In this document: one piece after another, positions 7,318 to 62,974 of the stretch
Layout: each line of letters opens with the position of its first letter
How positions within the stretch are numbered: position 1 is the first letter of the stretch
Source: Sipunculus nudus
Lineage: Eukaryota; Annelida; Sipuncula; Golfingiida; Sipunculidae
DNA: 64,000 nt
NCBI GenBank assembly: GCA_026874595.1
Contig: CM049322.1
Location: 45,875,340-45,939,339, forward strand
Direction of reading: 5' to 3'
Notes under the pieces: generated by a model
The model's database searches: none
The model's input: the letters and a program-made list of their open reading frames with translations, nothing else
Told to the model about the DNA's origin: nothing
Program-made: the position numbers and the translations under genes

Positions 7318-7879
7318 GGCACACTCTTTTCAGTTAATATACAGGAAGGTATTTACCATTACAATACAATTTATAGTTTTAGGGGTAGGTGTGAGCAGGT
7401 AATGGGCACGTAACTGACGTGAGGTGACAGTATATCATTGTAATTTTGTAGGACTTAATATTCTTATTCGATAACAAGTGGTTGAATATTCCCTACGTAT
7501 AAGCGACCAGCAGATAAATATTCTATTCGACTCGATGGAAGTATATGATGTTTGCTGTCAAATTCTCGTAAGATAAATATCATTATTCAGAACTATGGGA
7601 CAGGCATGTCTGTGCGTCACTCCATTAACCTGGTGCTTACGGAAGGTGGCTTGAGAGATATTTTATAGATGAATAAAAGCAAAAAGACTATTTTACATAA
7701 ATGCACTACATGTTAATATTTCAGTTGCTGCCAATTTACCATTGTGAGTGTGGAATACCGTCTGGCACCAGAGCATCCGTTAGCGGTAGGTTACTGGACC
7801 GTGACAACGCTGCCCGAAGGCCACAACAAAACAAATTTGATATTGGCATAATTATTCTGATGATTATATCATTGAAACG

Positions 7880-7942
7880 AAATATATATATATATATACT
7901 TTATTATATCTCTCTTCAATCTTGATATACATATACTTATTA

Positions 7943-7996
<54 letters not shown>
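7880..7996. repeat. (TA)n microsatellites in intron 3 of copy 1
   Basis: Two TA runs (7,881-7,900 and 7,945-7,996). Intron 3 of the related copy 4 carries a TA run at the matching position (27,498-27,554), so the tract predates duplication. Confidence 0.85.
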
Positions 7997-8001
<5 letters not shown>

Positions 8002-8239
8002 ATACATAATCTTATGTCTACAAGCTATTGTAGTCATTTTGATCATTGGTGGTAGTATATAGTATTATTATGGAATATTACCTTAAAGCATTCAGTAAAT
8101 GGTTGGCAGGCGGAACAAAGATTAGCGTGGTGGGAGAAGGCGGGGACGGTTGGGGAAGAAAGGCGCCGGCGTTGTGCCCTCATTACGTACTGGGAAACCT
8201 GTCAGTGTCCGAACAGAGTAATTAAAAATTTTATACAAA

Positions 8240-9000
8240 GCTCCAGTATTCTAATAAATGATGCATTGATCGCCATGGTTCCTTGCATGCATATTTGTCA
8301 TGATGTATTTCATCAGTTCCTGCAGACTGGTGGCGCAACCTGTATTTTTTTTCGCATTTTCCATCTGTTTTTAATATTTAAATGAAGCATTCATCTGTTA
8401 ACAGGGCAATAATTTTCACTTTTAGACCTAAAATCTTTTAAACTTGACATCCAGGGAATATCTCCTTGGAAACCTGAAAGTTGGTCTCTTTATCATATTC
8501 TTTGACATATGTGGCTCAGTAAATACCCCCAGAATAATCAATAATTGGATACAACAGGATCTAAATAACTTATGCATTAATCGCCAAGTTTATTTGCCTG
8601 CATAATGTTCCTGTAGCGTTTCATTAGTTCGTGTACAGTGGTGGCACCACCTGTTTTTAATCGATTTTTGCGCATTTTCTCTAATTTTGAGACCATTAAA
8701 TTAAGCAGTCATCTGTTAAAAGGGCACAAATTGTCACTGTTGGACCTAGAAATATTTTACTTGCCATCCTGGGAGGTCCATAAAATATCTATTTGGGGAC
8801 CTGAATAGGTCTCTGTTCCCCATATTCTTTGTGCAATGGAGCTATTTAAGACCCCAATGAATATTAAAAAATGGATACCATGGCTCCAGTGTCTCAATAA
8901 CTAATGCATTGATCGCCATGATTGATTGCGTGCCTGGTGATCATAGAGTGTTTCATCGGTTCCTGCAGAGTGGTGGCGCCATCTGCAGTTTTTTTTTTGT
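8240..9000 (+). repeat. About 320-bp repeat, three tandem units
   Basis: The phrase ATGCATTGATCGCCATG recurs near 8,261, 8,572 and 8,903 (intervals of about 311 and 331 bp). Each is followed by a TTTCATCAGTTCCTGCAGA.TGGTGGCGC-type segment, then CTGTTAACAGGGCA and a decayed remainder. The third unit is incomplete. One more copy lies in intron 6 of copy 4 near 30,573. No coding frame. It fills the space where exons 5-7 of copy 1 should be. Confidence 0.7.
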
Positions 9001-9489
9001 TATTTTAAGCATTCTTTCTGTATTTGTTTGAAACAAACATGTAATAATGCCTAGTATTATGATGATTTGTGTAAGACCAACAAGTCAAAGCATAAGGCAG
9101 GCGAGGATCAGTGTATAAAATCTTTTTGTTGCAGACTTCTATAAAGACCCCTTTGACAAGGTTTACTGTTCGATCGCTGATTTCATCAACAGAATTATGT
9201 TCAAAGTTTAGTGCAACAATAAGTTTGAAAAATGCATTCATTTATAGATAGTCAAAATATTTGAAGGAAATGTTTATTTCTTTTTTTTCTTTTATATACC
9301 GTATGTTGTATACCATACATCGTGTCTTTAATAGCAGTCCAGATGTTATAATTTATTTGGACGTGTTAAAATTACTATTTGGTCATTCATGAAATGAAAT
9401 TTTTTTAGCCAAACAGGATTTTTTTTACAAATATTGCGCATTGCAGGAGGGACTAAGTATTAATGGAATACAGAAATGTTGTAAAACTG

Positions 9490-10582: not shown

Positions 10583-10603
10583 TTATATATACATATATAT
10601 ATA

Positions 10604-10662
<59 letters not shown>
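10583..10662. repeat. (TA)n microsatellite
   Basis: About 80 bp of nearly pure TA directly before the hairpin at 10,663. The same position carries TA tracts upstream of copies 4, 7 and 8. Confidence 0.9.
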
Positions 10663-10663
<1 letters not shown>

Positions 10664-10713
10664 CAGGGACCTGGCATCAGTGAATCTTGGAGTCACTGAT
10701 GCAAGGTCCCTGC
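10663..10713. repeat. Perfect-stem hairpin
   Basis: Arms GCAGGGACCTGGCATCAGTG.. and ..CACTGATGCAAGGTCCCTGC pair at 20 of 21 positions around a 9-base loop (ATCTTGGAG). Only copy 2 has both arms. Copy 8 keeps the right arm near 60,394, and copies 4 and 7 keep a GCAAGGTC.CTGCTCAACCGAG remnant. Confidence 0.8.
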
Positions 10714-11403: not shown

Positions 11404-14400
11404 ATGGCTGCAGCTAAAGACCCATATTTTGAGTATCGCGTGCCGTTAGAACCTGAATCTGCTCGAATGAATGAGCTACGAAAGAAATTCCAAAGACGAA
11501 GTTACAGATCCATGAGTCTGGAAGAGGCGAGAAGCTCCCACCTTCAGTATGCCATTGCTCTACGTGGACATTATGACTTCAATGGCTCAGTCACAGATCT
11601 CCGGGTACCTTCAGATCAACCTCAAGGTAACATAATAAATAAGTCGTTTCAATTTCTTTAAAAATGACACGGTCATTTCCTTGACAACAATATTTTTCGA
11701 GCAATGAAATGTTTTTATACTTTTTATTAATAAACAATGTGAGGCCAGGATTTTTTTTTTTGCTCAGATTGACCATTTCCTTAGAATTGAAATTATATAT
11801 TATAGAGAGTTAATTCCTTTTTTATTTAGCAATTTTCATTTTTTTATTCAAAATAATCATTACCATGGCAACAAATCTCCATATTCTTTTAAAACCCCCT
11901 GTTATCAATTTGACATGCACATATTATCTCTACAACTGTAATATATTATTCCTTCAGGGGGCCATTTTAAAAAAAAGCAACTTTTTTAGCTAATACAAGC
12001 TCGTCTCATGTAGTATTTTAGTCAACATGTCTTAATCAACCTGAAGAAACACTTTGAAATCACAATTTCAAACTTTGATACCATTATTAAACAAAATACT
12101 AAGTTACCAGTCATAAATATTCATGTACTTTGATACCCTTAAATTTTCATGAATATCTTCTAGTATGCGTTCTAGTTGCGATCGAGTCCCAAGGGGTAAT
12201 TCTTAAAAAAATAGCTTTAAGCTGAAGGTTTGTTACCAAATGAAGCAGGACAGCCCGCTAATACTTATATTACTGTATCTATCTTAGAGCGTTAAAGGTA
12301 TTTTCAAAACGTAAAGTACTTTCAGATATCAATTGAAAAAACACCTAAAGTAAAAAAGTGTAGAGGACATTATTTAAATGAAAATCAGTCGTCAAATAGT
12401 TATGATAATGGAGTTAATAAGGAGCATATGCACATCACAATACATTTGAAGCATTGGGCTATGTCAATTGACTGAAATTAGATCATCTCCACTTATTTAT
12501 TCACGAAATCTTCTTCGTAAGTTATGCTCACTCTCTATCGTTGACTTGTATTCAATGTCATGTGGCCGATATGAACTTAGTTAGTTTTGTGTTTAGTGTT
12601 TAGTTTTTTTAGTTTAGTTTAGTGTCAGTTTTGACCATTTTCTAGACGGAATACCTATTCGAGTGTATAAACCAGCCAACATCAGACCTGATCCCGCAAT
12701 CTTGGTCTACTTTCACGGGGATGGAATGGTTCTGGGCTCCATCGAGGCTTATGATGTTTGCTGTCAAATGCTAGCAGAGTAAGAGAATAAAGTTTTTATA
12801 CCTGCAATCCATGTTAATAGAACAAGCGTCGCCTTCCATTAAAATATGAATAGCTGACGTCTCTTTGTAATTTACTTTTTTAAGTAATAAAATAGCAAAC
12901 AGTTAATCTCTTTATATGTATATATTATGAAAACAGTTGTTTAGATGTATATATACATATATTTCTCTATATATATACATATCTTTATATATTTCAGCCG
13001 CTCCAAATGTATAGTTGTGATTGTTGAGCACCGTCTGGCACCGGAACATCCGTTACCGGCAGGGTTAGAAGACTGTGACAATGTTGCCGGATGGATACTA
13101 AAAAACAAAGCAAATATTGGTAATTTCTTATAAAGACTTATTAGCAGAAGAAACATTAATATTCAATTACAGTACTATTTTCCTATACTTAAACATATAC
13201 TGAACCTCAGATTTTTGCCTCAGACATTCGCTCTAATCAAGTTATGACTTCTGTATTATTCCTAACCCCGTGCATATAAAACCTTAAATCCAGAAAGCAT
13301 AATAATAACATATAATTGTTATCGTATGGGTACCTTTATCCTCATTTAGATGAAAGTGCCCCTAACAGGCCATTTACCTAATTGAATATATGCTTCACTA
13401 ACATAACCTGTGTTCACATAGATTGTGCCGCGATAAGTCCAAATACCCCATTTATTATACACTTATAGTTGTTAATATTTATTGTTATAGTTATAGCATA
13501 TTATTGAGATGTCCTTCGTTTGGCAGCAGAGATTTAAACATATTAACTCACATATAATAACAACACAAACACACATGTATAAATCTTATTTATTTGTTAT
13601 ACATGGACTTTACAAATAAAAACGTAAACTTTATTTATTTTACATGGATAGTACAAATAGTTATAATAATACAAGGCATTCTCCATGGCTCGGATGTTGG
13701 CGCTCGGTAGTAGTGGTCATAACCACGCCAGGAATCGAACCCGGGTTGCCAGCGGAGAGGGCCGAACGTTTTACCACACAGCTGTCAAGCTGTCACTTTA
13801 CAAATGAAGACGTTCGGTAGTATTTAAGGATGGAGGAAACCGGAGGACCTTTAAAATGCATAGACCTTGCATAGGTTACTTCAACCAACTCTGTAAGGCA
13901 CGCCCGGAATCGAACAAGAGTGCATTACATCTTTTACATTTTTTTTTATTCTGCCAATGCATTGGAGATAAAATTATTTCACTGCATTCTTTGACTATTT
14001 GACAGGCGGAACAATGGATAGCGTGGTGGGAGTAGGCGGTGATGGCTGGGGTGGAAAGGCAGCGGCATTGTGCTCTCACTATGTAAGAGGACTCGGGTTT
14101 CAGGTAAAATTACCTATGAAACAAATGAATTACTAGTTATTTTTGATATTACTATCTAAGCCAGATTAGATTTATAAAAAAATCTCTTTATGAAATGACA
14201 AGGCTTATAATGTTCATTGTTTTAATAGGTATTGGTATACCCAAGCACAGATGAAAGCCTATCATTTAAGTCTTACAAGGAGTATATTTCAAAGAAGCGA
14301 GGAGATGACGATGATTGGTAAGATCTGAAATAACCCAACCAAAGGATTTCGTAATGTAGGACTGTGACGATACCTGTGATGTCATTTTCTATCTGTCTGA

Positions 14401-16606
14401 ACCACGCGTTCGTGCACACGCACACACACTCAAAGCTCACAGAAATAACAGAGACCATCATATAATATAAACGTATCCTTAATGCGTTTACCCTAACTAA
14501 TATAAAAAATCCCTTCTCTAAACTGTAAAATCACGAGGTCTGGTAGGATGTCTGAAGCGCCCACACGATCCCCTGCATACTGGTGTCAGCCAGGTTCTGC
14601 GTTGAAATCGTGTGCTATCAGTCCTCAGTTAAACCACTCAGCCGTCGGCCACACTTGAGCGCCCTCTCTCGCCCTATTGACGAACCCCACTGTGGGGTCC
14701 TGCGGTGCTGATCTGTGTATCATCAGACACCTTCCAGGATCCAGGGATGTCCGCTAATCCGTCAGCTAGACAGTAAATTCACTCCGCGCTCTGCGCTCAT
14801 CCGGGATAGAAAGCTATCAGGAAGAAAAATACACACAAACTCATAAAGCATACGGTCTTCTCAAGTACCACAGCACGTAAGCTATGAGGGCCTACTGCCT
14901 AGAAAGGTTCCTTCTCCGGGAACGTTACGTCATACTCCTTGGCTCTAGCTAGTTTTAAACAGTTAGCAAGTTATATTAATTGGCATTATAAACAAGGTTT
15001 TCGATAGCTGGCATATTGATATCATGAAAACACCGTATTTACCTCAAACTTATTATCCATACATGGAGAGGTCATGCCGGATTTAACGACAGAACCTACT
15101 CAAACTGTCAACACTAAACATTTAAGCTGTCTACTGCTTTACAATACATTTCCATAAATATTATGCTTCTCAACACAACTTTACACTGATGATTACAAAT
15201 ACGGTTCTCCAAGTTAAATCCAGCTAAAAAATTAAAAATAAAGTCTTCAAAGAGTCCTGCTTTTAATAGTCTGCTTAATTATTCACAATCTGTGTTCAAA
15301 CTTGGAGTTAAGACAAACTATCTGGAATTTAATTTAAAACAAAGTGTCAAATCAGAACAACTTACCGGTCTTCAATCCCAACCTTTTTGGTGACCAGCTT
15401 CAGTTCATGTTGGTTGTAATGTGAGGAGTGGGTGTAGTTTAGCCTTAACTGTCCAATTATACCCGAGCCTGCTGAAAGGTACTGAATATTCATAATATGT
15501 AGGAATAATAATATGTTCGTGGACAATACGAAAATAGCTTAGTAGCCCTGTAAATATCGATTAACTTCGACACGCAAGAAATGCCATTTATACACAAGCG
15601 TTTCCCCTCGCCTCGGAACGGGAAATCTTTTGAACTTCTAAACTGAGTGTCTGTCTCAGTTGGTGAAACGTAGTCAGCGCTTACACGCGAATGCGGCCGA
15701 ATTACATTAAGCACTTACTCAACCAGAACGTCAAAACAAACGAGTGAACGTGAAATAGTGTCAGTGCACCAGTTTGTGAATGAAAATTCTGGACATAATT
15801 CACATTATAGTTTGTCGTGTATTCAAAATGTCTCAAAATTAGATATGTTAATCGCTGACTATCATTAAATGCTGGGAGGCTCCAGGTTAATATTACACTT
15901 TTACCTGATGTTTATATCAACGTGTCCATACAGATCGATAATTCTCATAAGGTGAGATGAGCTCGTAGCAGTGCATTTCCATGGCCCATTTGATTCTGTG
16001 TTAACGGAATAATATGTTGTTTTTCTTGAACAACTAAAAGTAAAATACGACTTCTTTTACATTTTTAAGAAAATGAAATAATATTTAATTGAAATTGCTT
16101 TTAGGTATAGGAATTCATCGCAAAAAGAACATGATTAAAAATTAAATATTGTGAATAATCAAAACATGTGACAAAAGGGCTGTTTGTATTTTCCATTATT
16201 TCTCTGTTACAGGTTTCATCGATATCATCGAGAGACCATAAATCTTCAGGACGAAAGGTTTAGTCCTTACCAGAAGCCTCGTTTTGACCATCTTCCGCCA
16301 TCCCTTTTCATCGTGGCTGAATGTCACATCCGTCGTGATGACAGTATTGGTGGGTCCATGGTAACATTTTATAATATAACAAGGCCATTTGAAATAATCA
16401 TTTGATAATGGTACATTTTTCTCCAATATATTAAACATCTTAAAAAAGGATGTTATTGTAAATAAAGAACCATGTCAAGGGCAAAGTAGGAGGACTGAAG
16501 GTAAAATGTAGGAAACTTGTTTTAGTAATATATATATTCCCTGTTCAGTCAGTTCTTTCGTTTTTTTTTTTCTCGTTTAGAATCGCAATATATAATACTC
16601 GTGTTC

Positions 16607-16640
<34 letters not shown>

Positions 16641-17046: not shown

Positions 17047-17138
<92 letters not shown>

Positions 17139-18117
17139 TAGCGTTCCTTCGCCAGGTGTTTTTTACTACCTGTATGCAACCGATTGTGGATGGTGATGGA
17201 CAGCTGATAATGGCAGATCTTTCATTTCCTTTGTAACAAAGTAATACTCGATAGACATATGCAGAAGGTTGCTTAGCTTTGTTGACTAATCACTACGTCT
17301 TCACTTATTATATGACAGTACAAGTCAAAATACACTATGATTCCGGCAGTCAGTCATTATTAGATAAACTGATAGTACAAATGCTTTATACTTAAGGCTA
17401 TGTAAATCATCGGGGTCAATAATATAGTGAAAAAGCGGGCTCTACAATAAGTACTGATACCACTCCCGTCTTATACCTTGTGACGTTTATTCTCCGATGA
17501 AATGCCCTCGGAGAAAAGTAACATACGGAAGGTTATCTTTAAATTAAACAGAGTACGAGAAGAAACTAAAAGATGCAGGGGTCCAGACAGAGTTGCTCCT
17601 CATGAAGGGGGCGCTACACGATTTCTTTCACATCCCAGGTAACACCATATAAAACCATTTGTACCAGAACGTACAAAAATACACATAAAGCAGTTAACCT
17701 TATTTGTCCTAGCAAGCAAAGTATGTATATTCTTCTTCAATACCTTTTTTTCTAGATATATACACTGACCGGCTTTTGTATACTCAGTATTCCAATCCTA
17801 AAGCATGTAGGAACCGGGAATTTTTTTTATATGTTAATGATCGTTTTATTATATAAAATACAACGTTTGAATTATCAAGTCTGAAAATTTGTAAATTAAT
17901 CCGGGAGATGAGGAAAACCTTCAAATGATCTAAAGTTTTTTAAACGGACTTTTAATAGACCTGGTATTATTGTGACTTGTCTAAGCCCAATCTATCAAAG
18001 CATTTTGCAAAGTGCAGTGTATATTATGTTTCTGTTGCAGGCTTCTATAAAAACCTCTGTGACAAGGCATACGGCGCAGTCGCTGATTTCATCAACAGAT
18101 TTGTGTACAACCCTTAG
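11404..18117 (+). CDS. Copy 2 (type A): hydrolase-fold protein lacking the nucleophile, intact
   Basis: Eight exons: 11404-11626, 12646-12778, 12998-13119, 14006-14103, 14229-14317, 16213-16349, 17552-17638, 18041-18117. All junctions are GT-AG, the phases agree, and the 966-nt sum gives 321 aa. Family marks of Abhydrolase_3 (HSL/AADAC): [10 protein letters not shown] (75-84), oxyanion-hole region YFHGDG (96-101; usual HGGG), [13 protein letters not shown] (129-141), and the elbow [10 protein letters not shown] (170-179) where GDSAGG is expected, so the Ser is Gly173. [12 protein letters not shown] (254-265) has His260 where the catalytic Asp should be, and LHDFFH (289-294) keeps the His. An ester hydrolase role is therefore unlikely; binding or scaffolding is inference. 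The start is the gccATGG at 11,404; an in-frame ATG at 11,293 would add 37 residues but is not conserved in copy 5. No signal peptide is visible. A TAG ends it 8 codons earlier than copy 5. Confidence 0.85.
11627..12645 (+). other. Intron 1 of copy 2
   Basis: About 1 kb, AT-rich. Alignable over its length with intron 1 of copy 5 (39,184-40,220), for example TCGTCTCATGTAG and AACCTGAAGAAAC. No embedded gene or young repeat seen. Confidence 0.7.
13607..13805 (-). mobile_element. Young tRNA-derived SINE with target-site duplication (intron 3, copy 2)
   Basis: A 177-bp insertion (13,618-13,794) flanked by perfect 11-bp direct repeats ACTTTACAAAT (13,607-13,617 and 13,795-13,805). On the minus strand it has a tRNA-like head with a perfect B box (CCGGGTTCGATTCCTGG), a short body and an AAATAAATAAAG tail. 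Copies 5 and 8 have a single uninterrupted copy of the target (about 41,300 and 62,388), so it came in after the tandem duplication. The target itself is an older relative (TTCGATTCCGGGCGTG on the minus strand at about 13,895-13,912). Confidence 0.85.
14391..15760 (+). repeat. Dispersed repeat R1 (intron 5, copy 2)
   Basis: A stretch of about 1.4 kb starting TCTGTCTGAACCACG and ending near CCAGAACGTCAAAACAAACG. It recurs in intron 5 of copy 5, at 57,602-59,146 (fullest copy) and as truncated pieces at 31,383-31,735 and 62,975-63,130. Relative to the surroundings its middle is GC-richer. No reading frame, LTR ends or terminal inverted repeats could be recognised, so the class is unknown. Confidence 0.6.
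16614..16660. repeat. (TG)n microsatellite
   Basis: TG dinucleotides broken once by TTCGG, in intron 6 of copy 2. Confidence 0.9.
16725..17048. mobile_element. Foldback/MITE-like element, 96-bp terminal inverted repeats
   Basis: Left arm 16,725-16,820 begins TAACTCTGAAGAAAAACAAC; right arm 16,953-17,048 ends with the reverse complement (GTTGTTTTTCTTCAGAGTTA). The arms match at the large majority of positions. The element is flanked by TA on both sides, as TA-targeting (Tc1/mariner-like) elements would be, and the 130-bp middle has no coding capacity. It sits in intron 6. Intron 6 of copy 5 keeps only the middle and right arm. Confidence 0.75.
17049..17136. repeat. (TA)n/(TATG) microsatellite
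   Basis: Impure TA tract immediately after the foldback element; the matching tract in copy 5 is at 44,094-44,162. Confidence 0.85.
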
Positions 18118-21205: not shown

Positions 21206-21727
21206 CAGGTACTTAAAATTAACGTTGTTTTAGCAGTCAGGTGTAGGTATATCAGCAGGCCTTTGACTAGTGTTTTGCGGTTCTTTTTAAAAAAAGCTAA
21301 CTAAACTGTAGGTCGGTTTCGCTAAAGGAGAGACAAGGTGGTGCATTAGTTCTCTATATAACTGCAAAACTCTTTTCGGTGAAACATTTCAGCTATTTCA
21401 CTAGCCCATCAAATGGCAAAATTAATTTAAGAACCAACTGCAGTTCATCACCTGATTTTGACAGCAAATGTTGTAAAAGGTTCTTTTTTATGCTAAATGA
21501 ATCATAATTATTTGCCTTTTTTCACTTTTTTGTGGCCAGCTATTTAAAATGATTTATGTTCGCCTTTGAACTTTAATTTGTTACAAAGTGTTAACATCCA
21601 AAATGCGATAAAGTACAATTTTAGGAAACTGTAACTGATTTGTTCAGTCACGGGATGCACACAACATGTAATGACATTCGACTAAGTTAATATTCTTCAT
21701 TTTTTTGTCATTGTGTTAATGAAACAG

Positions 21728-22263
21728 ACTATGAAAAGAAACTGAAAGCTGCAGGGGTTTAGACAGCGTTAATCCTTTTACATCCAAAGTAATATTAAGT
21801 TAATAAACAAAAGGTAACCTAACGTATACGTTACACATGTAGCATTTAAACATTATTTCTAAGCAAGCACGTTGACGCATTCTTGCTTATTTATTTTTAT
21901 TTTTACAAAAAATACAATGACCATTTAGTTTAATATTCCACTCCTTTAAAGTTGGAGGGATGAGAATATATTTTTTTCTGATATGCGAAAGCGACGGGTA
22001 TCATTTCATCTTATAATACAGTTTTTTTAAATCATACCAGGAGATCATAAGAAAATTAAATTTGATCCCAAACAAAGGAATTTTAGAAACGAACATGTTA
22101 AAATGCCTAGTATCATGATGATTTTTGCAAGGCCAACAAAACAAACATAAAGTTAAGTGCAGTGCTTAGTATATTTTTGTTGCAGGCTTCTATTAACACC
22201 TCTGTGACAAGGCATACGGATCAGTCGCTTATTTCATCAACAGACTTTTGTGAAACATTTCTG
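21728..22263 (+). pseudogene. Copy 3 (type B): exons 7-8 remnant
   Basis: Exon 7 relic at 21,728-21,789 keeps [10 protein letters not shown], then an in-frame TAG and a deletion that removes the GALHDFFH part. Exon 8 relic at 22,186-22,263 keeps its acceptor (TTGTTGCAG), but TAA is its third complete codon; the rest still resembles CDKAYGSVA.FIN. Exons 1-6 are absent: the left flank jumps directly from sequence matching 48,640 to sequence matching about 51,890, so about 3 kb including exon 6 was deleted here relative to copy 6. Confidence 0.75.
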
Positions 22264-25712: not shown

Positions 25713-27496
25713 ATGGCTCCAGATAAATACTCAACCTTTAATGGCGTGCCGTTACACCCTGAGTGTGCTCGAATGTATGAGTTACGACAGACGTTCCCCA
25801 GACCAGATTACAGATCCATGAGTCTGGAAGAGGCGAGAAGCTCACACCTTCAGTATGCCTTCGCTCTATGTGGACATTATGACTTCACTAGCTCAGTGAC
25901 AGATCTCCATGTTCCATCCGAAATACCAGAAGGTAACTTATTCATCATTACTTTCACTTAAATCATGCAATGACACACCACGTTTTTCATAATAAAGTAT
26001 TAGGCTAGTAAATTCAAAACATTTGTTTTGCGAAGATAAAATTTAAGAAACAAGTTACGGATGACGGTTTTGCTTCAACAAAGAAACCTAAATACTTTAC
26101 TTACGGTCACCTTAATATACCAGTCCCAGTGGTTGAGGTTCGAGTTCAAGTCTACCCCGTGGAGTCCGATGTTTCTTCAACACGATTTCAAGTCATAGTC
26201 AGAGTCAGATACAAATCTTCTTTTAAATAGAAATATAAGAATAATATTTGAGAAAATCATACAAATCCTATGTATAGGATACAAATCCTATTCTATAAGT
26301 GCACTTTACTCGAATGACTAATTACGTTTTACCCCTGAATTATAGGTAAAACTTGGTACGATTAGTATTATATTTAAAAATATTCTAATATTCATCCATA
26401 TGTTAAAAATATACAAACTGTGACACAGTTTTCCTTTTTAACACAATAAGTGCTCTGGGTGATTTCTAGGGTTCTTATTATGGAGTATTAGTGCAATTCC
26501 GAGTTCAAAACCCTGGAGTCCATGTCTAAATCAGAGTTCTTAAACAAGTGTACTCGAGTTCAGATTTGAGTCCAATTGCGGAGTCGAGTCCTATAAAACT
26601 GATTTACCATATATCTTTTGAAATTTTCTAACACAGACGGAGGAAACATAGATGATTAAGTAATTTGATCAACACAGTATGAAAAATATATTTTAATTGA
26701 AAGCGAGATAAAAGGATAAAAGGGCTGTTCCGAAGTAAACAAAATAATAATGAAATTATATTTGAACATCACTGTGCATTTCAAGGATTGTAAATAGATA
26801 TTCTGTCATAAGAAAACCAACGGAATAAGGGATGAAAAATAAACTGACCTTCACTCCACATTATAATTATATTTAGTAATGCGAGTTGAGTATTTGCAAT
26901 CATTCACAAATTCATATCATATTGACCCCTATAACTGTCAAGAGACGGCGCTAAACTAGAATTAGTTTCATTATTTTTTTGATTGAATATCCTATCCGAG
27001 TGTATAAACCAGAAAACGTTAGACCTGACCCAACCATCTTGTTCTACTTTCATTGGGATGGAATGGTTCTGGGCTCCATCGAAGCTTATGATGGCAGAGT
27101 AAGAAAACATCATTATTAAGTACTATGGAACAGGTATATATTTACGTCGCCGTTCTTATACCTGGTGTTAACGGAAGTTGGCTTGAGAGATATTTTATAA
27201 ATGAATAAAAGCAAAAAGACATACTTCATATAACCTATTTACGACTAATTTACATGAATTTATAACATTAAATAATTCAGTCGCTGCCAATGTATCATTG
27301 TGAGTGTAGATTACCGTCTGGCACCAGAGCATCCATTACCGGCGGGTTTAGAGGACTGTGAAAACGCTGCCCATTGGATACCTAAAAAACAAAACGGATA
27401 TTGGTATAATTATTCTGATAATTATATCATTGAAACGAAATATGTAAATACTTTATTATATTATTCTTTCATCTTAATATAAACATACTTGTTAAG

Positions 27497-27497
<1 letters not shown>

Positions 27498-27554
<57 letters not shown>
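27498..27554. repeat. (TA)n microsatellite
   Basis: TA run in intron 3 of copy 4. Confidence 0.9.
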
Positions 27555-28212
27555 TCATGATCTTAAGTCTGTAAGCTTTTGTAGTTATTTTTACCATGAT
27601 GGCTGAATATAGTAAAATTAAGGAAAAAGCAATTATCCTAATACATTTAATAAACGATTCCCAGGCGGATCAAAGGATAGCTTAGTCGGAGTAGGCGGGG
27701 ACGGCGGGGGAGGAAAGGCGGCTTCATTCTGCCCCCACTATGTACCGGGACTCGGGTTTCAGGCAAAAATGTCTCCCCTCAATGTGCCCCTGGGCATTTC
27801 AGAGAAACTTATTTGATACAAATGAACTATTTTTTCTTAAACTGTGTTTCGATCCAAACCCTTATCAGATTATGTTAAATTACCCTTAATATAAAACCAC
27901 GAATTAGCGTGCATTGTTTTTGTCGTAAAGGTTAAAATCACATTTTAAATTTTAATAAGTGGTTTTTAATGATGCATACTGCCATACAGTCAGTGGACAT
28001 GTTCTTATGAGGAAGTGAGTCTTTATATTTCATAGTGAGAGCCGTTGACGTGTATGATACATTAATGCGGTTTTTTAGAGAGCAACGTGCATAGATAAAA
28101 CGGATAACTGTGTTGTTTTATAGGTGTTGATATACCCCAGCACAGATGAACGTCTCTCCTTTCCCTTTTACAATGAATATAACAAACTGATGCGAGGAGA
28201 TGACGCGGAATG

Positions 28213-28237
28213 GTCAGTTCTGAAATCACCTAGTCAA

Positions 28238-28306
<69 letters not shown>

Positions 28307-29990
28307 TTCGTACTTAAAGTCATTTGTACTTCTCTGTTTCCGGAGTCAAAATACATTGTAAGTTTTCTTTGCATTTAAAATATTTCCCAATATTATTTTA
28401 AATCGCTGACTATAAAGTGTCGAAAGCCACTACATCTACTTTGCTCTGTCTGTTGGAGGATTATACAGCCTTGACGTATCGATCATGATGTATCGGAATC
28501 GTTAAAACCCATCACAACATGTTGAAATATTGAACCGGCATAATAGTTTGGATATTTATGAGCAAGCTATTAGTGTGGTTTCTATAAATATCAGATTAAT
28601 ACTGAATATATATATATAATATAATATAATATAGTATAATATAATATATTATATATACGTAATGTGCACCCCTGGGCCGTCACAATTTATTTTTTTTTAC
28701 AAATATTATTTACCCGATAAACCTCCCACCCTCATTCGCCTGATAAGTTCTGTTAGCTTCACGTCGTTTGATAGGCTGAAAATAACATATTTGTTTGACA
28801 TCGCAGCACATTCGCTGGGACCTAAAGAAGCGAATGGGCTCGAGTGATGATTGTATTATAGTATGAATTAACTTATCCCAGCTAGCTATATAATCAGTGT
28901 ATTCCTCATCATAGTACTGACATATTACATAGACACGGTACTTAAATAGCACATACACCTCTTATAATTACGAACAAGCCGACGTATTTTATTCTCAGGT
29001 GCCAACTGCCGATAATCACAGGACAGTTAATCCCAGAAAAGGATGTCAAGAACAAAAACATTTTATGAAATTATAAATTAAGTAATTCTCTTAATCAGGA
29101 TCTTTCACGATCTTTCACAAGATGCAAATGCAGTTTGACCAACTGTCCCAGTCTTTGCTGACCCGTAGAGTAGGACACGCTTTTTCATTGCTAACATATT
29201 TAAACAAGAAAGATTGAAAGACTTACGGTTTAGCTAATTATCTCCATCGGTTCAAAATCAAATAACAGGCTTGGTAACAGCAGAAGTTACCTAAATATGA
29301 GGTTTGTTGATGCGGTCAAAGAAAGGGGCAAGAGACCCTTATATTTATATCCTTCTATTTCTGTTTAACAATACAGTCTGATGTCAGCGGCTGTTATCTG
29401 ATGAAAAGCTGACACGGTTTAGTAGGGACAATGTTTATATGGCTTAGAGGGTGCTGGCAGGATTCAAACTTTATTGTTTTTAGTAAAAGCGGAATTTTTT
29501 CAATTAAGACAGTCAGGCCTCTCATATGCTGATGTTACACTCAAACTTTTCTCAAAGATATCTCTAAATAATCCGGGGGTAGGCTCTCATTTCGATCGGA
29601 GCACTTATTACGTCAATAACTGAATAAAAGTTCTTATTATTAGACTAAATAGCCAATCTATATGGTTTAGAGGTTTGATGTGTCATATTAGGAAAACTCA
29701 TATCAGTGATATGATCATAAATATAGATCTTATAATCGGGTTGTAGCTGAAAAAATACACTTTTGACTTCTTTGAGTCAAGTTGCAGAAGATTAAGGAGA
29801 ATAGCCAAAAAAAAAGACAATTTACTTACAAAATGTTTCAGTGAAGAGATACAAGATACAGAAGATAATAAAAGCTGTAGTTATTGGCAAAAGCAATAGA
29901 TAAGATCGGTTAGATGTTGGGTATGTGAAACATTGACAAAATTTGTTATATCTTCAAAGCAGTATTTCCATATACTTGTCTACATAACAG
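28213..29990 (+). other. Intron 5 of copy 4
   Basis: About 1.8 kb. Starts with a 63-bp (TA)n tract (28,241-28,303); a second TA/TATAA-rich patch is at 28,604-28,658. No exon or recognisable transposon in the remainder. Confidence 0.6.
28241..28303. repeat. (TA)n microsatellite
   Basis: Pure TA tract 28 bp after the exon 5 donor of copy 4. Confidence 0.95.
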
Positions 29991-30554
29991 GTTTCGTCAA
30001 TTTCACTTGATTAGCGAAACGCCAACCAGTACCATAGAAAAATACACTACAGACCCGAGGTTTAGTGCTAACCAGCAGCCTTGTTTTGACCAACTTCCAC
30101 CAGCCCTCTTCATTGTGGCTGAATGTCATATTCTTCGCGACGACAGCTTTGGTAAGTTCCTGAGAAAATAAAATTTGAAATAGCTATTAGAAATATTTTA
30201 AGAATTTACAGTCGGTTTTTACCTATCCATTATATTTAACAAAATAATTTAACAAAATTGCCTAAAAAAAGAGGAGATTTATAAAAATATACTAGTGAAA
30301 CATTGAAAAACCATAGAAAAGTAAAAGACCCGTACATGATGATCATTACAAGGAAATCTGTATCTCCTTTTAGCTTTTGAGTCCTCTGAGCTATAGCGAT
30401 CACCATTTATCCGTCATTAGTCCGGTAGTCTGTCCGTGAAAAGTACAAAAAATCGTAACTGAAAGACCAAGAAAAAAAAACACGGGAATTTCCTTTGAAA
30501 CATGAAATTAGGTCATCCTAGGTATGGGGCTGCGGCAAGAATAATTATACGTTT

Positions 30555-30720
30555 TTTTTTATCCAAATAACTAATGCATTGATCGCCATGATTTTCTTGC
30601 ATGTATACTGATCATGACGTATTTCATCAGTTCCTATAGACTGCTGACACCTGTATTTTTCCGATTTAAACGCATTTTCCCTCTATATCTTTACCGGGTG
30701 ACATATAATCTTCTGACCTG
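30555..30720 (+). repeat. Single copy of the 320-bp repeat
   Basis: AATGCATTGATCGCCATG followed by ATTTCATCAGTTCCTATAGACTG, matching the units at 8,240-9,000. Lies in intron 6 of copy 4; the corresponding part of copy 7 is deleted. Confidence 0.65.
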
Positions 30721-31382
30721 ACATCCACATTTTACACATTTTTTCTCTATTTTTATAACTTCAAATGATAATTTTTACGAAATGTTTAATGCTAGGTATC
30801 ATTCGCATATATATGTGTTGACACATACAATTTAAATGCTAGAGTCCAGGTTGCTTGCAACCTATTTCGGCTACTGATCGACAGCTTGTTCTGTCAGCTT
30901 ATTACATTCCTCTTCAACAAAGTATCTGTAAACAAACAAAAACAGAAAGAGGTCTTGTTTAGCTTTGCTGGATAACCTTAACCTGTAAACCTTTTCTATG
31001 TTATATGTCACTACAGTCTAAATATATTATGGTTTGGGCTGCCAGTTTACCGGTCAAGATAGAATGAACTAATGCCTTAAAGTAACTAATAACCTTGGCC
31101 AAAATGTAGTTATGAGAGGGTATGATAATAAATGGCAATACCACTCCCACGTGATACCCTGTTATGTATATTATCTTGTTATATATATCGGGAAAAAAAA
31201 TGTGGAACGTTGTCTTAACATGAAACAGAGTACGAGAAGAAACTAAAAGCTGCAGGGATCCCAACAGAGTTGGTCCTTATGAAGGGGGCTATGCACGATT
31301 TCTTTCACATCCCAGGTATTACCATGTTTACGAACCATTTTTGACCAACACTTACACAATACACATTTACCTGTTTAAATCT

Positions 31383-38960: not shown

Positions 38961-40527
38961 ATGGCTGCAGAGGAAGACTTATATTTTAAGTATAGCGTGC
39001 CGGTTGACCCTGAATCTGCTCGAATGAATAAGTTACGGCAGATATTCCCCAGACGAAGTTACAGATCCATGAGTCTGGAAGAGGCGAGAACCTCACACCT
39101 TCAGTATGCCATCGCTTTACGTGGACATAATGACTTCAATGGCTCAGTCACAGATCTCCGAGTACCTTCAGATCAACCTCATGGTAACATAATAAATAAG
39201 TCGTTTCATTTTTTTTTTAAATGACACACGGAATAAACATTTCATCGGTCATTTCCTTGACAACAATATTTTTCGAACAATAAATGTTTTTATATTTTTT
39301 ATTGATAAACACTGGGATGCCAAGATTTTTTTTGCTCAGAATGACACTTTCCTTAGAATTAAAATAATAAATTATAGAGAGATAATTCCTTTTTTTATTT
39401 AGCAATTTTGATTCTTTTTATTCAAAATAATAATTACTATGGCTACAAATCTCTATATTCTTTCAGAATCCTTTTGTTATCAATTGGCATGCACATTTTA
39501 CCTCTACAACTGTTATGTATTATTCCTTCAAGGGGCCATTTTTTTAAAATAACAACTTTTCTTTAGCTAATACCAGCTCGTCTCATGTAGAATTTTAGTC
39601 AACATGTCTTAATCAACCTGAAGAAACTCTTTGAAATCACATTTTCAAACTTTGATACCCTCATTATACAACACACTTAGTTACCAGCCTTCAATAATCA
39701 TGTACTTTGATACCCTCATTCAAAACACACAAAGTTACCGGTCGTAAATATTCATGACTATCTTCTAATCAGTGGCGATCGAGTCCCAAGAGGTAGCTTA
39801 AAAAAAGAGCTTTAAGCTGATGGTTTGATACCAAAGGAAGCAGAACAGACCCCAAATACTTATATAACTGTATCTATCTATCAGCATTAAAGGTATTTTC
39901 GAAACGTAAAGTACTTTCAGATATCAAATGTAAAAACACCTAATGATATGGTTAACAAAGTGAAGAGGACATTATCTAAATAAAAGTCAGTCGTCAAATA
40001 GTCGTGATAATGGAGTTGATAAGGAGCAAATGCACATTACAATACATTTCAAGGATAGGGCTATGTTCATTAGGGAAGAAAATTTACTGAAATGAGATCA
40101 TCTTCATTTATTTATTTAGGTAATCCTCTTATCATTTAATAATGATCACTCTCTATCGTTCACTTGTATCCAATGTCATGAGGCCGAGATGAACGTATGC
40201 TACTTTTGTCCATTTTCTAGACGGAATTCCTATTCGTGTGTATAAACCAGCCAACGTGAGACCTGACCCAGCCATCTTGGTCTACTTTCATGGGGATGGA
40301 ATGGTTCTGGGCTCCATGGAGGCTTATGATGTTTGCTGTCAAATGCTGGCAGAGTAAGAAAATAGTGTTTATACCTGAAATCTGTGTTGACAAAACATGT
40401 TTGTTTAAGCGTCGCCTTCCCTTAAAATTCGATTACCATGAGCTGACGTCTCTTTGTTATACACTTTACGTAAGAAAATAGCAAAAGTTAATTTCTTTAT
40501 ATATATTATGAAAACCGTTGTTTTTAG

Positions 40528-40599
<72 letters not shown>

Positions 40600-40851
40600 A
40601 AATATTTCAGCCGCTCCACTTGTATAGTTGTGATTGTTGAGCACCGTCTGGCACCAGAGCATCCGTTACCGGCAGGGTTCAAGGACTGTGACAATGTTGC
40701 CCTATGGATACTAAGAAACAAAACAAATATTGGTATTTTCTAAAAAAAACATATTAGCTAAAGAAACATTAATATTCAATTACAGTACTATTTTTGCTAT
40801 CCATTAATATAAATATATACGTACACAAAAACACACACATATATATTTATG

Positions 40852-40899
<48 letters not shown>

Positions 40900-43800
40900 T
40901 GAACCTCAGATTTTAGCCTCATTCGCTCTAATTAATTATGACTTCTGAATTTTTCCTAACCCCGTGTATATAAAACTTTAAATCCAGAAAGCATAATAAT
41001 AACATATAATTGTTATCGCATGTGTACCTTTATCCTCATTCAGATAACAGTGCCCCTAACAGGCCATTTGCCTAATATAAATATTTGCTTTACTAACATA
41101 AACTGTTTTTACATAGATTGTGCTCGCCATAAGCCCAAACACACCATTAATTATACACTTATAGTTGTTTGTATTTATTGTTATAGTTATACCACATTAT
41201 TGAAATGTCCTTAGCAGCAGACATTAACACATATAAACTCACATATAATAACAAACAAAAACACACATAAATGAAGCTTATTTATTTGTTATACATGGAC
41301 TTTACAAATATAAAAAGTATAAGACGTTCGGTATTCAGGGATGGAGGAAAGCGGAAGACCCTTAAAATATACAGACCCTGCACGGGTTACTTCAAGCCAC
41401 TCTGAAAGTCACACCTGGAATCAAACAAGAGTGCTTTGCATCTTTTACATGTTTCTTTTTATTCTGTCATTGCATCGGAGATAACATTATTTCACTGCAT
41501 TCTTTGACTAATGATAGGCGGGACAATGAATAGCGTGGTGGGAGTAGGTGGTGACGGCTGGGGCGGAAAGGCAGCCGCATTGTGCCCTCACTATGTACCA
41601 GGACTCGGGTTTCAGGTAAAATAACCTATGAAACAAATGATTTACTAGTTATTTTTGATATTACTATCTAAGCCAGATCAGATCTGTAAAAATCTCTTCG
41701 AGAAGTGACAAAGCTTATAATGTTCATCGTTTAATAGGTGTTGGTATACCCAAGCACAGATGAACGCCTCTCATTTCCGTCTCACGAGGAGTATAGTTCA
41801 AAGCAGCGAGGGGATGACGCTGCTTGGTAAGATCTGAAATAACCCAACCAAAGCATATCGTAAGGTAGGACTGTGACGATACCTGCGATGTCGTATTCTA
41901 TCAGTCTGAATCACGAGTTCGTGCACACGCATACAAACACTCAAAGCTCACAGTTATGACGGAGACCAGCCATATAAGATAAACGTATCTTTAATGCGTT
42001 TACCCTAACTAATACAAAAAAATCCCTTCTCTAAACTGTAAAATCACGAGGTCTGGTAGGATGTCTGAAGCGCCCACACGATCCCCTGCATACTGGTGTT
42101 AGCCAGGTCTTCAGCGTTGGAATCGAGCGCTATCAGTCGTCAGTTATCCCTCTCAGCCGTCGGCCACACTTGAACGCCCTCTCTCGCCCTATTGACGAAC
42201 CCTACTTCGACTGTGCGGACCTGCGGTGTTGGTCTGTGTATCATCAGACACCTTTCAGGATCCAGGGATGTCCGCTAATCCGTCAGCTGGACAGTAAATT
42301 CACTCTGCGCTCTTCGCTTATCCGGGAAAGAAAGCTATCAGGAAGAAAAAATACACACAAAAACTCATAAAGCATACGGTCTTCTCAAGTACCACAGCAT
42401 GTATGCCATGAGGGCCTACTGCTTAGAAAGGTCAATACTCCGGGAACGTTACGTCATACCCCTTGCCTTTTGCCCGTTGTAAACAGTTTGCAAGTCATAT
42501 TAATTGGCATTATTAACAAGATTTTCGATACCTCGCATATTGATATCATAAAAACACCGTATTTACCTCAAACTTATTATCCATGCATGGAGAGCAAATG
42601 CCGGATTTAACGACAGCCCCTACTCAAATTGTCCACACTAAACATTTAAGCTTTACAATACATTACCATAAATATTCAACACAACTTTACACTGGTGATT
42701 ACAAATACGATTCTCCAAATTGAATCCAGCTGAAAATTTAAAAATAAAGTCTTCAAAGAGCCCTGCTTACAGTTCTCTGAGTATTCACAATCTGTGTTCA
42801 GAAGAACAACTTACCGGTCTTCAACCCAACCTTTTCGGTGACCTGCTTTGGTTCATGTTGGTTGTAATGGGAGAAGTGGGCGTGGTTCAGCCTTTACTGT
42901 CCAATTATACCTGAACCTGCGGATAGGTACTGAATATTCATAATATGTAGGAATAATAATATGGTCGTGGACAATACGAGAACTGCTAGCTAGCCCTGTG
43001 AATATTGATTAACTTCGACAGGCAAGAAATGCCATTTATACACTAGCCGTTTCCCCTCGCCTCTGAACGGGAAATCTTTTGAACTACTAAACTGAGTGTA
43101 TGGTTTCAGTTGATGAAATAATATATTATTTTTCTTGAAAAACTAAAAGCCAAATACGACTTTTTTTACATTTTAAAGAAAATGAAGTAATATTTTTTTT
43201 AAATTGAAATGTCATTTAGATATAGGAGTTCATCTCAGAAAAGAACATGATTAAAAATTAAATATTGTGAATATTCAAAACATAAAAAGGCTATTGGTAT
43301 TTTCCATTATTTCTCTGTCACAGGTTTCATCGACATCATCGAGAGACCATCAATCATGAAGACAAAAGGTTTAGTCCTTATCAGCAGCCTCGTTTTGACC
43401 ATCTTCCGCCAGCCCTTTTCATCGTGGCTGAATGTCATATCCGTCGTGATGACAGTATTGGTGGGTCCATGGTAACATTTTAAATAAATTTAACAAGGCC
43501 ATTTGAAATAATAATTTGATAATGGTACATTTTTTTTTTGTAATTTATTAAATATCTTGAAAAAAGGATGTAATTGTGAATATAAAACCATGTCAAGAGC
43601 AAAGTAGGAGGACTGAAGGTAAAATGTATGAAATTCGTTTTAGTAAAATTGTTGTTTTAATATTTATATATAATACAAAGATATATTACCAGGATGCTCA
43701 ATTAGCATAGTAAACTGATAAGCAATAGGGTCCTGGAAAAAGCAACATATCAGTAGTATACATATGATATAAAATACACATATACTATGAAAATACACAA

Positions 43801-44092
43801 TATATTGTTCATATCAAACAGCAACAAACCTCTTTACCCTGTTATGTTCCAGTATCGCACGTGTAGCCCGACCAGTTCTATTGTGCCCCCGAGGACAATA
43901 TGATCAGTCTCAGTCTTTCACATACCCCCCCCCCCCAAAATTGCACAAAGCATCATCTCGTAATCTCATAAAGTCTCGGCTGTTCAAACCACGCCGTTAG
44001 CTTCATTCTAACCATATTCACCTGATGATCGGGTCGGATCCCGTGAAACAGACTGTTGTGAATTTAGAGTGTTGTTTTTCATCAGATTTTAT

Positions 44093-44152
<60 letters not shown>

Positions 44153-45132
44153 TATATATATAACCGATTGTGGATGGTATCGGACAGCTTATAATGTCAG
44201 ATTTTTCATTTCCCTTGTAACAAAGTAACTGTCAATAGACATATGCAGAAGGTTGCTGAGCTTTGTTGACTAATCACTACTTCTTCACTTATTATATGAC
44301 AGTACAGGCCAAAATTCACTATGATTCAGGCAGTCTGTCATTATTAGATAAACTGATAGTACAAATGCATCACATTTAAGGCTATGTAAATCATCGGGGT
44401 CAATAATAGAGTAAAAAGCGGACTCTACAATAAATAATGATACCACTCCCGTGTGATACCTTATTATGTTTATTCTCCGATGAAATGCACTCGGAGAAAA
44501 GAAACATACGGAAGGTTATCTTTAAATTAAACAGAGTACGAGAAGAAACTAAAAGCTGCAGGGGTCCAGACAGAGTTGGTCCTAATGAAGGGGGCGCTGC
44601 ACGATTTCTTTCACATCCCAGGTAACACCATATAAACCATTTGTACCAGAACGTACAAAAATACCATTAAGCAGTAAACCTCATTTGTCCTACCAAGCAA
44701 AGTATGTATATTCTTCTTCAATACCTTTTTTTTCTAGATATATACACTGACCGGCTTTTGGATACTCAGTATTCAAATCCTAAAGCATGTAGGAACCGAG
44801 ATTTTTTTTCATTCTTTTATATGTTAATGACCGTTTAATTTAATAAAATACAACGTTTGAATTATTAAGTCTGAAAATTTGTAAATTATGCCGGGAGACG
44901 ATGAGAAACTTCAAATGATCTAAAGTTTTTAAAACGGACTTTTTATAGACCTGGTATTATTGTGACTTACCTAAGCCCAATCCATCAAAGCATTGCACAA
45001 AGTGCAGTGTATATTATGTTTTCTGTTGCAGGCTTCTATAAAAACCTCTGTGACAAGGCATACGGCGCAGTCGCTGATTTCATCAACAGATTTGTGTACA
45101 ACCCTCAGAACAACACAAGGGATCCATCCTAA
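38961..45132 (+). CDS. Copy 5 (type A): hydrolase-fold protein lacking the nucleophile, intact
   Basis: Exons 38961-39183, 40221-40353, 40611-40732, 41518-41615, 41738-41826, 43324-43460, 44535-44621, 45032-45132; 990 nt, 329 aa, every junction GT-AG with the same phases as copy 2. Motifs: [10 protein letters not shown] (75-84), YFHGDG (96-101), [13 protein letters not shown] (129-141), [10 protein letters not shown] (170-179, Gly173 in place of Ser), [12 protein letters not shown] (254-265, His260 in place of Asp), [11 protein letters not shown] (289-299, His290 kept). The tail [10 protein letters not shown] is 8 residues longer than in copy 2. The start is a gccATGG; the upstream ATG of copy 2 is out of frame here because of one extra base in the leader, which supports 38,961. 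No membrane segment or signal peptide is seen. It is the most complete gene of the array. Catalysis by the usual Ser-Asp-His route looks impossible. Confidence 0.87.
40524..40595. repeat. (CA)n(TA)n microsatellite
   Basis: Compound tract ending 15 bp before the exon 3 acceptor of copy 5 (AG at 40,609-40,610). Length change here could affect the branch point/polypyrimidine region. Confidence 0.85.
40855..40900. repeat. (TA)n microsatellite
   Basis: Intron 3 of copy 5; copy 8 has a matching tract at 61,920-61,966, copy 2 has none. Confidence 0.9.
41901..43110 (+). repeat. Repeat R1 (intron 5, copy 5)
   Basis: Same insertion as in copy 2 (same intron position), shortened at its 3' side, where it jumps to TTGATGAAATAATATATTATT. 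Shared between copies 2, 5 and 8, so it predates their duplication. Confidence 0.6.
43860..44090. mobile_element. Foldback element, left arm lost (intron 6, copy 5)
   Basis: Matches the middle and right arm of 16,725-17,048 (GTGTAGCCCGACCAG, then CGTTAGCTTCATTCT through GACTGTTGTGAATTTA). The left arm is replaced by other sequence, and a C12 run interrupts the middle. Confidence 0.65.
44093..44162. repeat. (TA)n microsatellite
   Basis: About 70 bp TA tract following the foldback remnant in intron 6 of copy 5. Confidence 0.9.
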
Positions 45133-51616: not shown

Positions 51617-52466
51617 GTTTCGTCATTTCTACTTGAAAAGCGCAACCCCAACTGAAGGGCACCTCGCTTTAGATCATCTCACTACAAACCCAAGGTTTAG
51701 TGCTAACCAGCAGTCTCATTTTGACCAACTTCCACCCTCCCATATCATTGTGGCTGAATACCTTATTCTTCGTCACGCCACCTTTGTTAAGTTCCTAAGA
51801 AAATCCTTAAATGTGGAATGGCTATTGGAAATAACTCGACAAATTGGAGTTGGTTTATGCCTATTTTCAATATATTCAACATCTGTCCTAAATGAAACAG
51901 ACTACGGAAAAGAAACTTAGAGGTGCAGGGGTCCAGATAGGGTTATTCCTGATGAAAAGGCCGATTCACACTTTCTTTTAAATCCAAAGTAATATCAAGT
52001 AAATAAACAAAAGGTAACCTAACGTATACATTACACATGTAGAATTTAAACATTATTTTTAGGCAAGCACGTTGACGCATTCTTGCTTATTATTATTTTT
52101 TGGTTTTTTTTTTTGCAAAAAAATACAATACCCACTTTAATATTCCACTCCTATAAAAGGAGAGATGAGAATATATTATTTCCTGATATGCGAAAGCGAC
52201 GGGTATCATTTTATCTATTAATACAATTTTTTAAAATCATACCAGGAGATAATACGAAAAATAAATTTGATCCTAACAAAGGAGTTTTGGAAACGAGCAT
52301 GTTATAATGCCTAGTATCATGGTGATTTTTGCAAGGCCAACACATCAAACATTAAGCAAAGTGCAGTGCATAGTATATTTTTTTGCAGGCTTCTATTAAC
52401 ACCTCTGTGACAAGACATACGGATCAGTCGCTGATTTCATCAACAGAGTTGTGTGCAACGTATCTG
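51617..52466 (+). pseudogene. Copy 6 (type B): exons 6-8 remnant
   Basis: Exon 6 (51,617-51,786) is open: WFRHFYLKSATPTEG..., with VAEYLILRHATF in place of [12 protein letters not shown], so the Asp position is Leu and the RDD is lost. Its GT donor has become TT. Exon 7 (51,901-51,989) has a one-base insertion giving a stop after seven codons and lacks the HDFFH part. Exon 8 (52,389-52,466) has TAA as its third complete codon, the same lesion as copy 3, so type B died before duplication. Exons 1-5 are absent. Confidence 0.8.
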
Positions 52467-57532: not shown

Positions 57533-57601
57533 GTATTACCATGTTTACGAACCATTTTTGACCAAAACTTACACAATACACATTAACCAGTTTAAATCTT
57601 A

Positions 57602-61074: not shown

Positions 61075-61921
61075 ATGGCTGCACATGAAGACTTATATTT
61101 TAAGTATAACGTGCCGGTAGACCCTGAATCTGCTCGAATGAATAAGTTACGGCAGATATTCCCCAGGATTGGGCTTAATTCATTACGGAAGAATATTGAC
61201 TGAAATGGGATCATCTTCACTTATTTATTCACGTAATCGTCTTTGTAATGTATGCGTTCTCTCTATCGTTCACTTGGGTCCAATGTCATGAGGCCGAGAT
61301 GAACGTGTGTTAGTTTTGTCCATTTTCTAGACGGAATTCCTATTCGAGTGTATAAGCCAGCCAACATCATACCTGACCAAGCCATCTTGGTTTACTTTCA
61401 TGGGGATGGAATGGTTCTGGGCTCCATCGAGGCTTATGATGTTTGCTGTCAAATGCTGGCAGAGTAAGAAAATAAAGGGTGTTTTTACCTGCAATCCATG
61501 TTTGTTTAAGCGTCGCATTCAATTAAAATTCGGTTACCGTGAGCAGACATCTCTTTATTACATACCTTTTTTATGTAAGAAAATGACAAACAGTTATTTC
61601 TTATGTATATAATATGAAACAGTTGTTTATAGATACACACACATACATATATATATATATACCTTTAAATATTTCAGTCGCTCCAAATATATAGTTGTGA
61701 TTGTGGAGCATCGTCTGGCACCAGAACATCCGTTACCGGCAGGGTTGGAGGACTGTGACAATGTTGCCCGATGGATACTAAGAAACAAAACAGATCATGG
61801 CATTTTCTTACAAAGACATATTAGCTAACGAAACATTAATATTTAATTACAGTATTTTTTCCTATACATAAATATATATATATATATACGTACACAAAAC
61901 ACACAATATATTTATGCTTCG

Positions 61922-61968
<47 letters not shown>

Positions 61969-62901: not shown

Positions 62902-62974
62902 GTAAGATCTGAAATAACCCAACCAAAGCATATCGTAAAGTAGGACTGTGACGATACCTGCGATGTCGTACTCT

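Follow-up and report, generated by a model that had tools for sequence, protein, structure and literature searches.

Neuroligins and NDRG are non-catalytic animal proteins of the alpha/beta-hydrolase kind. GID1, which is placed near the HSL family, has a small-molecule hormone as its ligand and also binds a partner protein. In the sections of PMC10873640 on which we draw, GID1 is described as a protein of the alpha/beta-hydrolase fold, presumably descended from a catalytic carboxylesterase whose activity it no longer has; most of the canonical residues are kept, and the catalytic His has become Ile or Val. The same sections describe carboxylesterase-like cyclases of plants that carry HGAG and have Tyr or Phe for the catalytic His, one of 16 cyclase-like sequences having Gly for Ser, and legume dehydratases that have Thr in place of Ser (PMC10873640). 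As told there, both a hormone receptor and alkaloid cyclases arose in plants from alpha/beta-hydrolase proteins of the carboxylesterase kind that lack a working triad (PMC10873640).

Here, we have analysed a 64,000-base stretch of DNA without any N (the window) and found on its forward strand a single gene repeated in tandem as eight copies or remnants, of which only copies 2 and 5, about 27 kb apart, are intact; the other six are broken or remnant. We propose that the two intact copies encode an HSL-type alpha/beta-hydrolase fold that would be unable to hydrolyse esters by the mechanism of the family, that this catalytic loss would, in the simplest order, precede the separation of the type A and type C copies, and that the gene would then have been held by purifying selection as the array expanded and six of the eight copies decayed. 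The old substrate pocket would bind a small, probably lipophilic, ligand without turnover, and the protein would act as a carrier, sink or sensor. We give about an even chance to this reading as a whole, that of a retained, esterase-dead family of HSL fold whose role is most likely ligand binding.

Table. Copies and remnants of the gene in the window, with the exons of the two intact copies. Copy borders come from exon matching across the window; those of copies 2 and 5 were checked by hand.
Feature	Position	Strand	Content	Basis
Copy 1	7520..9204	+	broken; fragments of exons 2, 3, 4, 8; GDGWGR	
Copy 2, whole gene	11404-18117	+	intact	exon matching and hand-checked borders
Copy 2, exon 1	11404..11626	+	start codon and N-terminal region	GCCATGG start context, GT donor
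Copy 2, exon 2	12646..12778	+	oxyanion motif HGGG changed to HGDG, Asp100	
Copy 2, exon 3	12998..13119	+	EHRLAPE (His130); relatives mostly DYRLAPE	
Copy 2, exon 4	14006..14103	+	nucleophile elbow GDGWGG (Gly173, Trp174)	
Copy 2, exon 5	14229..14317	+		hand-checked borders
Copy 2, exon 6	16213..16349	+	His260 at the catalytic Asp position, AECHIRRD	
Copy 2, exon 7	17552..17638	+	His290, the retained catalytic His, HDFF	
Copy 2, exon 8	18041..18117	+	includes stop codon	
Copy 3	21718..22252	+	remnant; exons 7 and 8 only, stops within both	
Copy 4 (type C)	25713..31317	+	broken; exons 1-7 at least partly there	
Copy 5	38961..45108	+	intact, to the position of the copy 2 stop	
Copy 5, exons 1-4	38961-39183, 40221-40353, 40611-40732, 41518-41615	+		
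Copy 5, exons 5-8	41738-41826, 43324-43460, 44535-44621, 45032-45108	+		
Copy 6	51692..52459	+	remnant; parts of exons 6, 7, 8	
Copy 7 (type C)	55311..57534	+	broken; truncated exon 1, exons 2-4, part of 5, and 7	
Copy 8 (type A)	61075..62902	+	broken; truncated exon 1, exons 2-5, stop in exon 5; GDDWRG	

Copies 2 and 5 are each split into eight exons whose lengths agree between the two (223, 133, 122, 98, 89, 137, 87 and 77 bases), and every intron shows AG before the next exon and GT after the exon, in agreement with a sequence-only reading of this locus that had described two copies with eight clean exons. Copy 2 has 321 codons and ends at its own stop, and both copies are stop-free up to there; copy 5 has CAG at that position, and its frame runs on through NNTRDPS to its own stop (328 residues). 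Among the damaged copies, copy 4 has lost 17 bases of exon 2 by deletion, lacks a match to exon 8, and reads HWDG, GDGGGG and AECHILRDD at its motifs; copy 7 reads HGNG and GDGGGG and lacks exon 6. Exon matching found no exon 4 in the remnant copies 3 and 6, and the latter has Leu at position 260 and His at 290.

The start ATG is aligned in five copies (2, 5, 4, 7 and 8). A hydrophobic stretch lies in frame upstream of the copy 2 start; a start further upstream in that frame was considered and rejected, because the corresponding ATG of copy 5 is not in frame. AADAC carries an N-terminal membrane anchor, and no such anchor is visible by eye downstream of the best start codon, at 11404. An out-of-frame ATG, 28 bases 5' of the main start of copy 2, has an aligned counterpart in each of the five copies under comparison (11376-11417 and counterparts); in copy 2 it opens a 13-codon frame that overlaps the main start and is a possible short upstream ORF. 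Copies also resemble each other 5' of their first coding exon, at about 73-86% in the matches (9956-11403, 38076-38960 and 59747-61074), so that the duplicated unit probably takes in a promoter or a 5' untranslated exon.

Several other elements lie in the window. A non-LTR retrotransposon (LINE) occupies 32244-37478 on the forward strand; its first ORF, of 292 aa, matches no Pfam family, two overlapping frames at 33705-34906 carry endonuclease pieces (PF03372, with one of the pair slightly below the cut-off), and a reverse transcriptase ORF of 880 aa carries PF00078 and zf-RVT. LINE sequences, introns and microsatellites are in keeping with an animal host. Intron 6 of copy 2 contains a 98-base inverted repeat with arms 93% identical (16723-16820 and 16953-17050), one arm of which recurs in copy 5 at 43995-44089; it resembles a small inverted-repeat element. 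On the reverse strand, 13680-13800 is a tRNA-like stretch with the B-box-like GGTTCGATTCC, possibly the head of a SINE; the window has a single occurrence of the motif GGTTCGANTCC, and in it ARAGORN found no tRNA and Rfam, at its gathering threshold, gave no match. A further repeat family with direct and inverted relatives lies outside the gene, 3' of copies 2 and 5, at 19995-20989, 46946-47835 and 49995-50504.

As judged by sequence, copies 2 and 5 belong to the HSL (Abhydrolase_3) family by descent: PF07859 matches them with 140.9 and 141.3 bits, against a cut-off of 25, over residues 94-293. The similarity extends to solved structures, among which 128 distinct sequences were matched, the best being Est8 (4ypv) with an E-value of 9.7e-39, and the best 60 of the 128 are named esterases, lipases, carboxylesterases or hydrolases or carry laboratory names; this similarity points to an HSL fold for both proteins. 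The best NCBIfam model, LipP1 (residues 26-311), scored 193 bits, below its cut-off of 350. COesterase (PF00135) scored 22.7 and 22.3, below its cut-off of 27, and the two proteins do not fall among the type B carboxylesterases. What marks an active esterase is lost from both at the Ser nucleophile, the catalytic Asp and HGGG, and is kept at the catalytic His.

The comparison set comprised the best 80 of at least 582 relatives from a genome scan; all 80 have prokaryotic titles, and they are 28-39% identical in the best segment. The two patterns of the scan touch positions 100 and 130, with both letters allowed, and not 173 or 260. In a FastTree tree of these 80 relatives with copies 2 and 5, the two copies sit on a long branch whose placement is weak (0.059 and 0.839), and we therefore claim no origin for them. 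Viral contigs scanned with both proteins gave 33 pattern matches and no relatives, and plasmid records contained relatives in 701 records, all at less than 60% identity. Among the open-licence papers listed by literature searches, no title or abstract opening concerned a nucleophile-less HSL family of molluscs or other invertebrates.

We take the roles of the alignment columns (nucleophile, catalytic Asp, catalytic His and oxyanion) from the established assignment for the HSL family. The family motif (PF07859) at the nucleophile elbow is GDSAG, and Ser stands at the nucleophile position in 80 of the 80 aligned relatives. The elbow of the array copies reads exactly as, and where, the sequence-only reading had it: GDGWGG in copies 2 (14008-14103) and 5 (41520-41615), GDGWGR in copy 1, GDGGGG in copies 4 and 7, and GDDWRG in copy 8. 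Position 173 is Gly in five of the six copies with exon 4, encoded by GGC in copies 2, 4 and 5 and by GGT in copies 1 and 7; the sixth, the broken copy 8, has GAC for Asp, and none has Ser. The claim that every surviving copy has lost its Ser has two intact genes and four broken copies as its basis. That an artefact of assembly or annotation has produced this pattern is scarcely credible, since Gly recurs at five of six separate places by two synonymous codons, and since the same clean exon borders are found in two distant copies.

The loss had been seen as one of the nucleophile Ser alone, and it proved wider. The catalytic Asp position is Asp in all 79 relatives with a residue there and His260 in copies 2 and 5; the third Gly of HGGG, also present in 79 of 79, is Asp100 (HGDG); and the Tyr of YRLAPE, found in 80 of 80 and also in copies 1, 4 and 7, is His130. 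The catalytic His (79 of 79) is retained as His290, and so are RLAPE and GDxxGG. Counting as near-invariant the 35 positions that are at least 95% conserved in the 80 relatives, 27 are kept and the other 8 differ, identically in copies 2 and 5: G100D, Y130H, S173G, A174W, L178A, Y227H, D260H and L262R. Y227H is doubtful, as it depends on a one-residue alignment choice and copy 2 has Tyr one residue earlier. Of the other seven changes, six belong to YRLAPE, the motif of the catalytic Asp, the nucleophile elbow or the oxyanion loop, and L178A lies four residues beyond Trp174. The relatives themselves are changed at 0-3 of the 35 positions, which is partly by construction, the columns having been defined on the same 80 sequences. 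With the nucleophile and the Asp partner of His gone, and an Asp in the oxyanion loop, hydrolysis by the established mechanism of the family should not run.

The neighbouring copies suggest the order in which these changes arose. The type C copies 4 and 7 have Gly173 and Tyr130; copy 4 has in addition His260, Asp100 and Leu262, and copy 7 has Asn100. Copy 1 combines Gly173 and Trp174 with Tyr130, and the type A copies 2, 5 and 8 have Trp174 and His130, copy 8 with Asp at 173. His260 is found in three of the four copies that have the stretch, the exception being the remnant copy 6. In an unrooted tree of exon pieces, type A (support 100) stands apart from type C (93). Since Gly173 is common to both types, its origin is most simply placed before their split, as the earlier reading had also argued, and on the simplest reading of the array the Ser, the Asp and the third Gly would all have been lost by then. 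Alternatively, gene conversion between copies may have spread the changes.

Was the gene maintained after this loss, or is it merely decaying? Copies 2 and 5 differ at 41 of 321 amino acids. Their dN/dS, which the sequence-only reading had singled out as a check, with a value near 1 together with no expression speaking against its view, is 0.40 (dN 0.066, dS 0.164; bootstrap 0.26-0.65); it lies below 1 and so does not refute that view. Divergence in their introns is 0.106 (0.115 corrected). The 963 coding bases contain no indel, whereas the introns have 92 events in 4893 aligned columns. Were indels as frequent in the coding sequence as in the introns, 18 would be expected and the chance of zero would be 1.4e-8; even at a third of that rate the chance of zero is 0.0024. 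Substitutions between the two copies avoid columns conserved at 85% or more, with 2 of 61 such columns changed compared with 39 of 260 others (Fisher p 0.010). Freedom from stops is by itself modest evidence, since both copies stayed stop-free in 3.6% of neutral runs at a divergence of 0.115 and in 1.2% at 0.164 (5000 runs each).

The pieces of the broken copies were picked by similarity and are stop-free, so that their dN/dS, spanning 0.26-0.85 over the pairs, may be too low; read in this way, the six pairs of type A with type C, broken copies included, give 0.27-0.53 (copies 2-4 0.27 and 4-5 0.31 over 162 codons, the longest; 2-7 0.38 and 5-7 0.46 over 135 codons; 4-8 0.40 over 104 codons and 7-8 0.53 over 107 codons), other pairs give 0.30 (2-8), 0.48 (4-7) and 0.60 (5-8), and copy 1 against the rest gives 0.32-0.85 over 50 codons, the highest being with copy 7 (0.85). 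The ratios between types A and C suggest that constraint continued past the catalytic loss, and, with the results for copies 2 and 5, they support purifying selection persisting after the nucleophile was gone.

That the family is decaying, its constraint relaxed once the nucleophile was lost and copies 2 and 5 being simply the last to break, is in our judgement unlikely, although several observations fit it. Six of the eight copies are broken or remnants, and because of this the family as a whole may be disappearing. By exon, dN/dS between copies 2 and 5 ranges from 0.10 in exon 2 to 0.92 in exon 5, with 0.61 and 0.65 in exons 1 and 3; exon 8 is unchanged. When the substitutions in the aligned pieces are split by branch with type C as the outgroup, 11 synonymous and 9 non-synonymous changes fall on copy 2 and, respectively, 4 and 7 on copy 5, with 6 unresolved, so that constraint on copy 5 by itself appears weakly resolved. 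Against decay stand the overall ratio, whose upper bound is 0.65, the lack of coding indels amid abundant intron indels, and the low ratios between types A and C even with broken copies included.

The evidence for selection leaves the retained function to be considered. The sequence-only reading had concluded that a non-catalytic fold is retained, and this stands in so far as the Ser nucleophile is absent and dN/dS is below 1; a non-hydrolytic enzyme fits the sequence as well. The most economical function, and the most likely one, would be that the former substrate pocket binds a small molecule, but the retained His290 counts against it, as pure binding does not explain this residue. The main rival is that the protein may still be an enzyme that uses His290 and the new polar residues for a reaction without a serine nucleophile, such as cyclisation, dehydration or isomerisation, and we regard this as possible, if somewhat unlikely. 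In its favour, His290 is present in all four copies compared and in the remnant copy 6, although its retention over so little divergence is uninformative by itself. Five of the eight changes at conserved sites, or four of seven without position 227, are to His, Asp or Arg. Moreover, the plant carboxylesterase-like cyclases, in the sections of PMC10873640 that we use, catalyse despite a disrupted triad and HGAG for HGGG.

The same polar residues allow two more specific proposals. Asp100, His130, His260 and His290, together with the conserved His98 and Asp172, might form a His/Asp cluster that serves as a metal-binding or acid-base site, whether to catalyse some new reaction other than hydrolysis or to bind a charged ligand; we think this improbable. 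If so, the array would display stepwise states on the way to the cluster, from the six of six exon-4 copies without Ser through Tyr130 in type C, joined by Leu262 in copy 4, and Trp174 with Tyr130 in copy 1, to Trp174 with His130 in type A. Still more improbable is another catalytic arrangement that would go on hydrolysing esters, for example with water activated by His290 and Asp100 or His260: polar residues have indeed been gained at the active-site motifs, but no such arrangement occurs among the 80 relatives examined, and the oxyanion loop is altered too. If the family were restricted to this species and not expressed, its importance would be small.

Compared with the HSL or family IV esterases (Est8 4ypv, 3aio and LipP1), copies 2 and 5 are of the same family by sequence and share RLAPE, GDxxGG and the catalytic His, but have the Ser, the Asp and the third oxyanion Gly replaced. 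Neuroligins and NDRG are similar in having the wider fold without ester hydrolysis; they are, however, of other families, and PF00135 remains below its cut-off here. The comparison with GID1 that the sequence-only reading had drawn holds in principle, while the residue pattern is the opposite according to the sections of PMC10873640 drawn on here: GID1 has kept the Ser and lost the His, whereas copies 2 and 5 have lost the Ser and the Asp and kept the His. The HID-like cyclases of plant monoterpene indole alkaloids, as those sections present them, likewise have a disrupted triad and a replaced third Gly of HGGG, but with HGAG, His changed to Tyr or Phe, and a known reaction, in contrast to HGDG, Ser to Gly, Asp to His and a kept His at this locus. 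As far as these accounts go, the residue pattern of copies 2 and 5 matches none of the plant proteins exactly.

The plant relatives of the fold are precedents for ligand binding and for a non-hydrolytic enzyme alike, and such genes would call for caution before they are annotated as esterases. As catalytically dead or repurposed proteins of the hydrolase fold are already known, the conversion of several active-site residues seen here would be a new variation on them. It would add a further independent loss of the triad, in an apparently animal lineage, reached by a different route and with the fold under selection, and the partly changed and broken neighbouring copies would reveal the sequence in which the changes came about.
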